Part shown: positions 4,402-17,394 of the stretch, piece by piece
Position numbering within the stretch: the stretch's first letter is position 1
Layout of the letters: every line of letters starts with the position of its first letter
IMG/VR virus record: IMGVR_UViG_3300032223_001306
Location: 1 to 21,116 of that record
Direction: 5' to 3' (one strand)
Length of the DNA stretch: 21,116 nt
Origin: a virus
Position numbers and translations under genes: made by a program
Notes under the pieces: generated by a model
The model's input: the letters and a program-made list of their open reading frames with translations, nothing else
Databases searched by the model: none
Told to the model about the DNA's origin: nothing

Positions 4402-4700
4402 TGAACCGACAGGAAATTCTTGTTGAAGCCATTGATCTGATCTACAATGATCGTCAAACAGATTATGGAACTCCACAGGATAATTTCAAGCGCATAGCAA
4501 CTCTATGGTCAGTTGTTTTAGGAATTCCTGTCAAGGAGCATCAAGTTGCTTTATGCATGAATCAAGTCAAAGTTGCTCGTCTAGTTGAGTCTCCTAAAAA
4601 GCTTGATGGTTGGGTTGATGCTGCAGCTTATATGGGAATCGGCGGAGAACTTGCCACTGAAGAACCTATTAAGATAGATGATTCGGAGGATTGTGAATGA
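4401..4700 (+). CDS. DUF6378-like phage protein
   Basis: The protein has 99 residues from ATG 4401, which shares one base with the previous stop (TAATG). The pattern NDRQTDYGTPQDNFKRIATL, then LCMNQVKVARL, then KLDGWVDAAAYMGIGGEL matches a widespread small phage family (DUF6378-like, from recall). The family is all-helical and of unknown activity, sometimes compared with nucleotide-pool proteins. The C-terminus is acidic (DDSEDCE). It is coupled to the next gene by an ATGA overlap. Confidence 0.7.
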   Translation: MNRQEILVEAIDLIYNDRQTDYGTPQDNFKRIATLWSVVLGIPVKEHQVALCMNQVKVARLVESPKKLDGWVDAAAYMGIGGELATEEPIKIDDSEDCE

Positions 4701-5248
4701 CAACTCTTGTTGCTTTTCAAGGTCCTGGTTGGTCAGTCATTGGTTCTGAAAGCCGCACCACGGTTGGAAATAGAATCATTGATGATTCGACAATTAAGAT
4801 CAGAAAAGTCGGCGAAATTGTCATTGCTGCATGCGGAGATGTAAGAGGCGAGGATATTGTTTTCCACTCTTGGCGACCTCCTGCAATCAAGACTAAAGAT
4901 CTAAATCGGTATGTCAGATCAAGTCTGATTCCATCTCTTCGTAAAGCGTTTATTGTTTCAGGTTATGAAGCTCAACCATCGAACGATTCAGCATCTCATT
5001 CGTCTGGGTTCATAGTTTCGGTCCGTGGTGAGTTGTTCCAGATCTGGATGGATTATGCAATTACTCGATCCGATGTTTATTCTGATGGATCTGGCGGAGA
5101 TTTTGCAATTGGAGCTGCTGAAGCTCTAGGCATCAGAAATGCTGCAACAGCAGAAGAAGCTGAAGAAATTCTACGAAAAGCAATTGAAGTCGCTAAGCTC
5201 TACGACATGGCATCAGGCGGAGAAGTCTGGACGATCATCCACAGATAA
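4697..5248 (+). CDS. Proteasome beta / HslV-like Ntn-hydrolase (putative peptidase)
   Basis: The protein has 183 residues from ATG 4697, with GGAGG upstream. It begins Met-Thr-Thr, so removal of Met would expose Thr as N-terminal nucleophile. Numbered from that Thr, Lys falls at 33 (TIKIRKVG) and an acidic Glu at 17 (GSESRTTVGN), the places of Lys33 and Asp17 in proteasome beta/HslV. A SGGDFAIGAAEAL block (about 131) matches the S-G-G loop followed by a helix in that family. Length also fits. It most likely forms a peptidase ring in the cytoplasm; no unfoldase is seen nearby. Glu for Asp at position 17 is a conservative oddity. It ends just before a strong terminator. A non-peptidase Ntn hydrolase remains possible. 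Confidence 0.7.
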   Translation: MTTLVAFQGPGWSVIGSESRTTVGNRIIDDSTIKIRKVGEIVIAACGDVRGEDIVFHSWRPPAIKTKDLNRYVRSSLIPSLRKAFIVSGYEAQPSNDSASHSSGFIVSVRGELFQIWMDYAITRSDVYSDGSGGDFAIGAAEALGIRNAATAEEAEEILRKAIEVAKLYDMASGGEVWTIIHR

Positions 5249-5298: not shown

Positions 5299-6267
5299 TT
5301 AGCGAACCATCTCCAAGACTCGATCTGAGAGCAAGTTGCCTTGATTTAGCATGAAACGCTCGCCTGCTGCATAGTTATCTTCCTTGAGAGTTGTGCGTGC
5401 CCACTGCTCATACTCGGTGAAAGCATTGACAATTCCCCATGCTGTTCCCTTGATGTTTTCTTGAGTATGTCCGTTCCAGATATTCAGCAAAGCACGCTGA
5501 CGTTCACGAGCATTTTCCTGCTGACGATCAGTCATATTGTCCTCATCGATAGGGAAAACATCCTTGACGATTGAGAAGAAGTCAGAGTTGGCAACTTTCT
5601 TTTCAACTAGTGAAGAAGAAAGAAGATTAAATTCTTCAGTTGACTTCAAGATGACTCCAAGAGTCTGACGAACATCTTCAATCTTGACACTCATGCGAGC
5701 TGAATGCTTAAATGAAATTGATGATGCATTTGTCCAACGTGTCATTCCATTCTTGCAGATCAAGCGGAGGTACTTGATTTCGAAGCGAAGTGAATCTGTT
5801 CCATCGTGAGTATTCGATGCAACTAGATATGCATCAACTGGATCAATATTCTTGAGTGTGAGATCAAGAGTGTTAGGAAGCTTTGCAGCCATAAAGATTT
5901 TCTTACCGCCGCGTAGTTCACCAGCAGATTCGTACATTGCTCCAGCTTCAAACATCACTGAGTCAACAATTTTGATGATGTCGTGGTTTTGGACAATTGA
6001 ATATGTTGGTGAAGTAATTCCAAGAACAGATGCTGATCCATCAGCATTAACGCGAGTTGTTGCAACTTTATTTTCAAGCGCAACATTTGTAACTCCATTC
6101 TCAGTAATTACGGATGTATGAAGTGGAGTGTGCTGAACTTCCCAATTGAGATTTGCAGCTTCAAGAACTTGAGTCGCATTGAACTCTTCATTGTCCTTAT
6201 TGATCCATGTTGCTGCATTGATCCATGGAGCTTTGCGACGTGCTGCGTTTGTGATCTGAACTGACAT
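5299..6267 (-). CDS. DUF932 family phage protein
   Basis: The protein has 322 residues on the minus strand, starting at 6267 after an AGGAG site. The sequence matches the DUF932 / phage-plasmid-like family: LNWEVQHTPL near the N-terminus, NADGSASVLGITSPTYSIVQ, then GGKKIFMAAKLP, a SNTHDGTDSL segment, RLICKNGMTRW and SISFKHSARM. Family members are common in phages, plasmids and actinobacteria, and are unannotated in function, with suspected roles in recombination or replication. The mRNA leader contains a hammerhead ribozyme, so the transcript for this gene is expected to begin with a ribozyme-cut 5' end. It converges on the terminator at 5255-5296. Confidence 0.85.
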   Translation of the reverse strand: MSVQITNAARRKAPWINAATWINKDNEEFNATQVLEAANLNWEVQHTPLHTSVITENGVTNVALENKVATTRVNADGSASVLGITSPTYSIVQNHDIIKIVDSVMFEAGAMYESAGELRGGKKIFMAAKLPNTLDLTLKNIDPVDAYLVASNTHDGTDSLRFEIKYLRLICKNGMTRWTNASSISFKHSARMSVKIEDVRQTLGVILKSTEEFNLLSSSLVEKKVANSDFFSIVKDVFPIDEDNMTDRQQENARERQRALLNIWNGHTQENIKGTAWGIVNAFTEYEQWARTTLKEDNYAAGERFMLNQGNLLSDRVLEMVR

Positions 6268-6294
6268 TTGTTTCTCCTAGCGGTTTGTTCTGAT

Positions 6295-6349
6295 GGACTC
6301 ATCAGTGACGTCATCTAACGTCAGACACTCCTTGCGGAGTGTTTCGTCC
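6295..6349 (-). ncRNA. Type II hammerhead ribozyme
   Basis: Read on the minus strand, all catalytic-core elements of a hammerhead are present in order. Stem II 5' strand is GGAC (6349-6346) and core GAAA (6345-6342). Stem III is CACUCC/GGAGUG closed by a GCAA tetraloop (6341-6326). U-C is at 6325-6324, with the expected cut after C (6324). Stem I is UGACGU/ACGUCA with loop UAGAUG (6323-6306). Core CUGAUGA is at 6305-6299 and stem II 3' strand GUCC at 6298-6295. Stems I and III are closed and stem II is open, which defines type II. The last A of GAAA pairs with the U before the cut. It begins on the last base of the upstream gene's TAG stop and lies in the leader of the DUF932 gene. Confidence 0.85.
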
Positions 6350-6588
6350 TATTTTTTTAAGTAGACGCGTGTGACTCGTGTTCCATCAGCATTTTCTACT
6401 GAATAACAAATCTCATCACTAAAAATATCAATCTCAGCTTTTTTAATATTCTTTTGAATAAAAGACATTCTTTTCAAAACTTTTGTAGATGTATCTCCTG
6501 CTTCAGTATAACTACCTCCACAACCACATGCGCAACCAGTTTTTCCATTGTAAGTACGAGTTACATTTGCAAACTTAAATTCTGACAT
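6349..6588 (-). CDS. Small Cys-rich protein upstream of hammerhead ribozyme
   Basis: The protein has 79 residues, starting at 6588 on the minus strand and preceded by CCAGGAGG. Longer open frame upstream runs through the control region and lacks a site, so this start is preferred. GCACGCGGSY (about residues 17-26) gives a compact Cys-x-Cys-Gly-Cys cluster, possibly metal-binding. The remainder is a charged helix-and-strand mixture ending RVTRVYLKK. No family is recognised. Its stop codon TAG supplies the first base of the ribozyme, and its leader has a hairpin and the same motif as the divergent rightward operon. Ribozyme cutting would leave its mRNA ending in a stable stem-loop. Confidence 0.65.
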   Translation of the reverse strand: MSEFKFANVTRTYNGKTGCACGCGGSYTEAGDTSTKVLKRMSFIQKNIKKAEIDIFSDEICYSVENADGTRVTRVYLKK

Positions 6589-6635
6589 TTTTTCCTCCTG
6601 GCGGTTATGGCAACCTCGGTGGTTGCTCATGGGAT

Positions 6636-6665
6636 AATTGAATCTTGTCCACCAGTATTTGTACA
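6636..6665 (-). promoter_or_regulatory. Leftward promoter candidate
   Basis: On the minus strand, TGTACA (6665-6660) and TCAATT (6641-6636) are 18 nt apart. The transcript would start just before ATGAGCAACC. The layout mirrors the rightward promoter (TGTACA, 17 nt, TAAATT), which makes it more credible than either alone. Confidence 0.45.
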
Positions 6666-6907
6666 CTCTATTTGAAAGATCTTTTGGATCCTGTGGAAAT
6701 CTTTCCAGCATGAATATGTCCAGATCGAGCGGCCAGGTTTGGCCCAGAACCGCGGACATTAAGCTCAGAGTATAAACATTTGAACCAGATACCAAAATCG
6801 ATCCTGGCGGATCCTGGGGCTATTTGGACACTTTTTGGCATATACCAGAACAAACGTTTTGGCCGGATTACATGTAAAAAGAATTTTAGAATCTTTGTCC
6901 ACCAGAC

Positions 6908-6936
6908 TGTACAAATGGACTGATCCGCATTAAATT
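6908..6936 (+). promoter_or_regulatory. Rightward promoter candidate
   Basis: TGTACA (6908-6913) matches four of six consensus -35 bases and is 17 nt from TAAATT (6931-6936). The predicted start, near 6943, falls at the foot of the leader hairpin. The matched promoter on the other side supports it. Confidence 0.5.
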
Positions 6937-6941
6937 GTACC

Positions 6942-6959
6942 TATGAGCAACCGCTCATA
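6942..6959 (+). promoter_or_regulatory. 5' leader hairpin
   Basis: TATGAGC (6942-6948), loop AACC, GCTCATA (6953-6959) form a perfect 7-bp stem at the very 5' end of the predicted rightward transcript. The ribosome site AGGAGG follows 10 nt later. A different hairpin (GCAACC...GGTTGC) occupies the same place in the leftward leader. It may protect the mRNA 5' end or tune translation. Confidence 0.5.
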
Positions 6960-6979
6960 CGAAACCGCCAGGAGGAAAA

Positions 6980-7195
6980 ATGAACACAATGTCTGAAGAA
7001 CAAACATCTTGGAACAATTGTTGTGGATTGCCAGTAAAGTTTCTTTTAATGAAAATCATCCTTGATTACGCAAATGGTTCTTCTTCTCGTGAAGAATATA
7101 CAGATTATTACAACCGCATGACTACTGAGCAAAAGCAAATTGCAGATGACATGGTAATGGAAATTGGAATTGCTACAAGCAAGGAGATGAACTAA
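6980..7195 (+). CDS. Small hypothetical early protein
   Basis: The protein has 71 residues from ATG 6980, 5 nt after AGGAGG; the in-frame ATG at 6989 is an alternative. It is acidic and helical in appearance (EEYTDYYNRMTTEQKQIADD), with a Cys pair NNCCG near the N-terminus. No family is recognised. It is the first gene of the rightward operon beyond the divergent control region, so it is expected early in infection. Such small acidic proteins often act on host functions, but nothing in the sequence says which. Confidence 0.6.
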   Translation: MNTMSEEQTSWNNCCGLPVKFLLMKIILDYANGSSSREEYTDYYNRMTTEQKQIADDMVMEIGIATSKEMN

Positions 7196-16799: not shown

Positions 16800-17134
16800 G
16801 CAATGAATCGAGACGTCGTAGAGGACGCGAAACAGAACTCATTATGGCAAATTACTTAAAAAAGAACGGTTGGATTTATGCAGAAGCAACAAGCGCTGCA
16901 GCTCAAGGAACAGATGTAACTGGAGTTGTTGGCGTAGATTGGGAAATGAAAGCACGAACAGGTTTTCCAGTCAAAGAAGCAATGAAACAACAAGCAAAAA
17001 GAGCAAAGGAAGGAATCATTCCTATTGCTGTATTACGACAAAATGGACAGGGGGAAGCAGATATTGACAATTGGCCAGCAGTAATGCCACTTAGTGTTGT
17101 AATCCATTTATTAAAAGAAGCGGGCTATCAGTGA
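16796..17134 (+). CDS. PD-(D/E)XK nuclease, Holliday-junction-resolvase-like
   Basis: The protein has 112 residues with an ATGA start. The basic, Arg-rich N-terminus (ESRRRRGRETELIMANYLKK) leads to an acidic residue (Glu14), then GWIYAEATSAAAQGTD (Asp40) and GVDWEMKAR (Glu50-x-Lys52). This is the Hjc/VRR-type PD-(D/E)XK core: E, D, E-x-K, with a Gly-rich bend. Size fits a small resolvase acting as a dimer on branched DNA before packaging. A generic DNA-repair nuclease is possible. It overlaps the WhiB gene by 4 nt (GTGA). Confidence 0.7.
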   Translation: MSNESRRRRGRETELIMANYLKKNGWIYAEATSAAAQGTDVTGVVGVDWEMKARTGFPVKEAMKQQAKRAKEGIIPIAVLRQNGQGEADIDNWPAVMPLSVVIHLLKEAGYQ

Positions 17135-17394
17135 CCAATTTGTTTTCAATAACTCCACAACCTTGGACAAAATATGCAGAATGCACAGATCCATCAATAA
17201 ATCCAGATTGGTTTTTCCCTGAACCAAAAACTGCAGATCCTTATGAAATAGCAACTGCATTAAGAATCTGTGCTGCATGTAAAGTAAAAAATCAATGTTT
17301 GAACTATGCAATTGAAACTTGGCCCAATGACGGTATTTGGGGCGGAGTCCGACCTGCACAACTAAAAAAACTAGCAGAAATGAGAATCAAATGA
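17131..17394 (+). CDS. WhiB-family Fe-S transcription regulator
   Basis: The protein has 87 residues from GTG 17131 (GTGA overlap). Four cysteines are placed as in WhiB: Cys18 in AECTDPSINPDWFFPE, Cys47 and Cys50 in ICAACKVK, Cys56 in QCLNYAI. The G(I/V)WGG turn follows (GIWGGVRP). WhiB proteins bind a [4Fe-4S] cluster and the host primary sigma factor. Phage homologues, such as TM4 WhiBTM4, can override host Wbl function and block superinfection. The family is confined to actinobacteria and their phages and so strongly points to the host. Beyond GWGG the tail is short (AQLKKLAEMRIK). Confidence 0.9.
   Translation: MTNLFSITPQPWTKYAECTDPSINPDWFFPEPKTADPYEIATALRICAACKVKNQCLNYAIETWPNDGIWGGVRPAQLKKLAEMRIK

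Follow-up and report, generated by a model that had tools for sequence, protein, structure and literature searches.

Introduction

Type II hammerhead ribozymes of bacteria and phages (RF02276) were surveyed in 2011, and the main text of that survey (Perreault et al. 2011, PMC3088659) describes a shared core, an open stem II, placement at gene boundaries, several copies per genome and, in most members, a pseudoknot between loop I and the tail. Gene-flanking arrays cut in vitro, and for clustered hammerheads a role in processing long phage transcripts was proposed, giving mRNAs the length of an operon or a gene (PMC3088659). The same source reports Agrobacterium hammerheads in tandem around ardA, where single genes of a polycistronic phage-like RNA have ribozymes on either side, and the HHphage variant of haloviruses HF1 and HF2, which lies in a leader just before the start codon and has a 5′ end mapped to the cut, insertions in the core and a dependence on high salt. 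A review (PMC6155905) still counts the function of hammerheads in bacteria and phages among the open questions.

Here we describe a genuine-looking self-cutting RNA, a predicted type II hammerhead, that separates two genes in an uncultured phage. It lies on the minus strand of a 21,116-nucleotide stretch of DNA (IMG/VR record IMGVR_UViG_3300032223_001306, positions 1 to 21,116), called the window below. The core, the open stem II and the gene-boundary placement are those of RF02276 hammerheads. This ribozyme differs in that it scores under the Rfam cut-off, has a 4-bp stem II and shows a possible loop I–tail pairing that is not conserved; it also carries a tail that can pair with the core and covaries with core position 7 (N7). 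Like the HHphage variant it is a viral hammerhead in a leader just before a start codon, although its core is canonical and its cut site is predicted rather than mapped. Unlike the tandem ribozymes at ardA, it is a single ribozyme, at a DUF932 gene.

Taken without its tail, the window ribozyme adds one more member to a known class, whose boundary placement has been known since 2011 (main text of PMC3088659). Pairing of the tail with the core and its covariation with N7 appear to be new, being undescribed in the open literature searched, including that main text.

A predicted hammerhead between a 79-aa gene and a DUF932 gene

Positions 6349 to 6295 of the minus strand read as a perfect type II hammerhead. 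The 5′ strand of stem II, GGAC (6346–6349), pairs with the 3′ strand GUCC (6295–6298). Between them lie the core bases G12 A13 A14 A15.1 (GAAA, 6342–6345), the stem III hairpin ACACUCC-GCAA-GGAGUGU (6325–6342, strands 6342–6336 and 6331–6325), C17, the stem I hairpin UGACGU-UAGAUG-ACGUCA (6306–6323, strands 6323–6318 and 6311–6306, with an extra U6317–G6312 wobble) and the core CUGAUGA (C3 to A9, 6299–6305), in which N7 is the U at 6301. All bases of the hammerhead core (C3 U4 G5 A6 N7 G8 A9, G12 A13 A14 A15.1–U16.1 and H17) are present. Stems I and III are closed and stem II is open, with 4 pairs in stem II, 7 and 7 in the others, and no mispairs flanking the core. By homology to the hammerhead core, cleavage is predicted between C17 (6324) and U1.1 (6323).

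The initial annotation of this sequence had called a complete type II hammerhead, with a canonical core and perfectly paired stems, cut between 6324 and 6323. Its bases and coordinates are all correct on the minus strand, and an Rfam match and eight orthologues agree with it; the cut site stands as a prediction. It had also placed the element in the leader of the DUF932 gene, starting on the final base of the upstream stop, and indeed the two genes are co-oriented and the final G of the TAG (6351–6349) doubles, at 6349, as the first G of stem II. Just beyond its coordinates, it missed the AUCAG tail at 6294–6290 and the alternative hairpin that this tail can form with the core.

A covariance-model scan, which the annotation had proposed as a check, matched Rfam Hammerhead_II (RF02276) over its full length with 32.3 bits (E = 4.6e-5 in a 251-base scan and 9.3e-7 in a genome search), though under the gathering score of 37, which is a filing threshold and not a biological feature. 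Because only 1 of the 24 places reported in 10 related records reaches 37, the gathering score is a poor judge here. Under loose survey settings on both strands, 600 order-1 Markov versions of the window gave 0 matches; the predicted window hammerhead is not a chance match. A strict search of the window found no additional hammerheads. Rfam matches to PK-PYVV and freshwater-2 were dismissed as weak and far under their cut-offs.

The upstream gene (6349–6588, minus strand, ATG at 6588) encodes 79 aa of unknown function; it has a strong Shine-Dalgarno, AGGAGG, ahead of its ATG and a weak match to PHROG 5930. Downstream, the DUF932 gene (5299–6267, minus strand) encodes 322 aa with family matches to PF06067 and TIGR03299 (phage/plasmid-like protein), a protein for which we found no solved structures. 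Its Shine-Dalgarno, AGGAG (6274–6278, minus strand), lies outside both the hammerhead and the alternative hairpin. The 79-aa gene, the ribozyme and the DUF932 gene form a leftward unit ending at a terminator-like hairpin (5285–5260, minus strand; consensus scan, 11 pairs).

Compensatory conservation at the DUF932 locus

A search of IMG/VR for DUF932 homologues gave 36 loci, and wherever the leader is present the ribozyme lies 35–40 bases ahead of the DUF932 start. A counterpart of the 79-aa gene (~35% identical) is found upstream in many of the orthologous loci. Variation that breaks the core or the stems in relatives, which the initial annotation had named as evidence against it, was looked for in eight distinct orthologues: the core bases are invariant and 100% of the 144 pair cells are formed, down to ~61% protein identity.

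Among these orthologues, 7 of the 18 pairs are changed on both sides, 4 of them among the 7 pairs of stem I. For example, stem I UGACGU/ACGUCA becomes CAGUGU/ACACUG, stem II GGAC/GUCC becomes GAGC/GCUC (in L035), and an A–U pair of stem III becomes G–C. When the alignment was slid as a control, the number of double changes was 0 in every slid version. Four relatives of ~37 kb have one such hammerhead apiece. Cultured actinophages with distant DUF932 genes (Abba, Jace, Sting, Cinna and NiceHouse) have no hammerhead, and a search of cultured phages with the element sequence returned nothing relevant.

Type II hammerheads at phage gene boundaries

We collected 476 distinct type II hammerheads by gene-independent pattern scans of IMG/VR plus one UCAG-tail scan, with a script that checks the stems. 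An ORF stop lies within 20 bases of the ribozyme 5′ edge in 413 of the 476, compared to 344 of 1428 random positions. The commonest distance is −1, a shared base as in the window, and −1 or 0 predominate. For 281 of the 476, a stop at most 20 nt upstream is combined with a Shine-Dalgarno and a start 8–42 nt downstream.

Arrays in some contigs place roughly one hammerhead at each gene boundary (7 in L069; 12 in the 7481 bases of L185). All seven hammerheads of L069 are UCAG-tailed, U7/AUCAG alternating with C7/GUCAG.

GNRA or UNCG tetraloops make up 191 of the 279 four-base loops on stem III, compared to 1 of 112 on stem I. Such stable stem III tetraloops are as expected if the hairpin is retained as a stable 3′ end; a folding aid would explain them equally.

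DUF932 is the commonest downstream gene in the survey. At loci fetched by the ribozyme pattern alone, 18 of the 315 ORFs directly after a ribozyme are DUF932, compared to 16 of 5405 other ORFs (odds ratio 20, p = 1e-14, a value that is indicative since ORFs were called mechanically and loci are partly related). These DUF932 proteins go down to 22–34% identity with that of the window. Another family also recurs among the genes that follow hammerheads (a cluster of 8, ~325 aa; L155, L165, L182, L212 and L243). Genes near self-cleaving ribozymes were reportedly listed by Weinberg et al. in 2015.

A UCAG tail covaries with core position 7

The tail AUCAG (6294–6290), five bases right after stem II, is complementary to the core CUGAU. 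The two can form the 6-bp hairpin CUGAUG-AGUC-CAUCAG (6290–6305, minus strand, 6305–6300 with 6295–6290), which is supported by the minimum-energy fold and by covariation over IMG/VR. As this pairing excludes stem II and the active core, it belongs to an inactive or spent state. The tail is not needed for cutting, since most type II hammerheads have none: its frequency is 63 of 348 (18%) in two scans whose patterns left the tail unspecified plus the DUF932 loci, a value that depends on the scan.

The covariation concerns N7 and the first base of the tail. Among 472 distinct ribozymes, those with U at N7 have AUCAG in 72 cases, GUCAG in 4 and UUCAG in 1, and those with C have GUCAG in 68, AUCAG in 1 and CUCAG in 1. 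With similar-stem ribozymes removed by simple string similarity of stems, 57 representatives remain (C7/GUCAG 27, U7/AUCAG 24, U7/G 3 and other 3; Fisher p = 2.8e-11). Control ribozymes that lack UCAG mostly have A directly after stem II, irrespective of N7 (p = 0.45). The window, with AUCAG and U7, fits the general form N′UCAG within a few bases of stem II, N′ pairing with N7.

The two states also occur side by side. Tail states are mixed in six loci, five of which (L069, L074, L134, L168 and L180) have both U/A and C/G in one contig. At the orthologous DUF932 place, within one supported clade, L342 has U/AUCAG while L316 and L362 have C/GUCAG. A genome-contig scan gave 2 matches, both U7/AUCAG and both in one Acidobacteria metagenome assembly; a scan with another stem II (GGTC/GACC) gave only 2 new tailed cases, both matching, and adds little.

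We had predicted beforehand that A7 or G7 would go with UUCAG or CUCAG, and a strict detector found no such ribozymes in IMG/VR. A purine-7 pattern scan of IMG/VR gave 8 matches, and the 7 listed form no hammerhead stems. U directly follows stem II in only 1 of 282 cases, a rarity which may explain the missing A7 tails but not the missing G7. Purine-N7 ribozymes exist (for example in L155) but are never UCAG-tailed, and often have C after stem II.

The start codon lies at a median of 27 nt from tailed ribozymes compared to 22 nt from untailed ones; the hairpin is therefore fitted in ahead of the Shine-Dalgarno. The covariation indicates that the tail pairs with the core; it does not tell when or for what purpose.

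The tail pairing is predicted to take over after the ribozyme is complete

In the predicted minimum-energy fold of the segment, stems III and I are accompanied by CUGAUG-AGUC-CAUCAG instead of the hammerhead. Followed by transcript length in the window, the hammerhead is the predicted winner at 56–58 nt and the alternative hairpin from 60 nt. The downstream product alone is predicted to fold into two adjacent hairpins, stem I and the alternative one, end to end from its first base. In an energy model that ignores tertiary contacts, core–tail pairing in this product reaches 0.80 compared to 0.37 with shuffled tails, and 92% of 84 representatives energetically favour the alternative fold (median −1.8 kcal/mol).

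The explanation we favour, and consider somewhat probable, is cleavage first, followed by tail-driven refolding of the downstream product. The hammerhead would cut the 79-aa/DUF932 transcript right after the upstream stop codon, at 6324/6323. The upstream mRNA would end one base beyond the GNRA hairpin of stem III, and the DUF932 mRNA would start with a 5′-OH at the foot of stem I. The AUCAG tail, transcribed about five bases after completion of the ribozyme, would then pair with the core CUGAU(G) in the downstream product. Core and stem II strand would become part of another hairpin that stacks behind stem I, and the 4-bp stem II would open; this would free the upstream RNA and block religation. 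The downstream mRNA would thereby gain a fully structured and possibly protected 5′ end, with its Shine-Dalgarno free. Two points speak for refolding after the cut: transcription reaches the tail last, and the downstream product by itself is predicted to form two hairpins. Ribozyme anatomy, compensatory conservation, intergenic layout and core–tail covariation are read from the sequences; cleavage, the order of events, product release and RNA-end protection are what we infer.

Splitting of the message, as the initial annotation proposed, is the natural reading because hundreds of relatives have the stop–ribozyme–Shine-Dalgarno layout. The arrangement is not rare, and such splitting had been put forward in 2011 (main text of PMC3088659). 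Together, the layout, the stem III tetraloops and the DUF932 link point to defined RNA ends in phage operons.

The main rival, a less likely reading that fits the same sequences, is an off-switch acting before cleavage. The tail hairpin would compete with the ribozyme, leaving part of the transcripts uncut or making cleavage conditional on transcription speed, a factor, or a ribosome at the overlapping upstream stop hiding GGACGAAA. The alternative fold is indeed the predicted minimum and near the hammerhead in energy. Moreover, the stop overlaps stem II in the window, and −1 or 0 is the most frequent distance in the survey; a terminating ribosome would thus sit on the 5′ strand and leave the 3′ half able to fold alone. 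Nevertheless, transcription completes the ribozyme before it reaches the tail, natural hammerheads in the literature can cut rapidly, untailed ribozymes show the stop overlap just as often, and a nearby ligand-like structure is absent.

We regard as improbable a reading in which the tail makes a tertiary contact within the active ribozyme, joining loop I to the strand after stem II, and matches the core incidentally. Loop I–tail pseudoknots are typical of the type II hammerheads in the main text of Perreault et al. 2011 (PMC3088659), and GAU in the window loop could form 3 pairs with AUC of the tail. This pairing is broken by the orthologue loops AAAU and GAAU, in which AUCAG is kept, and the covariation involves N7 and is restricted to UCAG ribozymes. 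As a reason for AUCAG across the class we rejected such a pseudoknot: loop–tail complementarity is 2.32 compared to 2.27 for shuffled tails, no excess.

It is very unlikely that the palindrome CTGAYG...CRTCAG is a protein-binding site, as DNA operator or RNA hairpin: a palindrome would give the same covariation, but this one precedes many unrelated genes in many phage groups and always overlaps a hammerhead core (the searches were for ribozymes). Least credible is a decayed or inactive relic, which the score under the Rfam gathering score could suggest, as core and pairs are kept with compensatory changes among orthologues to ~61% protein identity and nearly all other clear type II hammerheads found likewise score below 37.

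A conserved pairing that excludes the active core suggests that selection acts on events around or after the cut. For the question of what bacterial and phage hammerheads do, the core–tail covariation gives a specific handle, testable by single and compensatory mutants. More tentatively, these ribozymes could represent a widespread phage hammerhead class with a built-in second fold, in which a core-pairing tail under selection makes the ribozyme self-terminating or switchable and the stop codon and translation set the fold.

Genomic surroundings of the window

Elsewhere in the window, a WhiB-family transcription factor is encoded at 17131–17394 (plus strand; PF02467, 1e-14). This gene and the GC content of 39% suggest a low-GC actinobacterial host, possibly from freshwater. 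A Proteasome/HslV-like protein (4697–5248, plus strand; PF00227, PHROG 1040), here in a phage, is encoded next to a DUF6378 gene. Divergent units are separated by ~390 bases without an evident gene (6590–6980). We did not find a convincing promoter in this region; it contains small inverted repeats, for example GATCCGCCAGGATC at 6813–6800.
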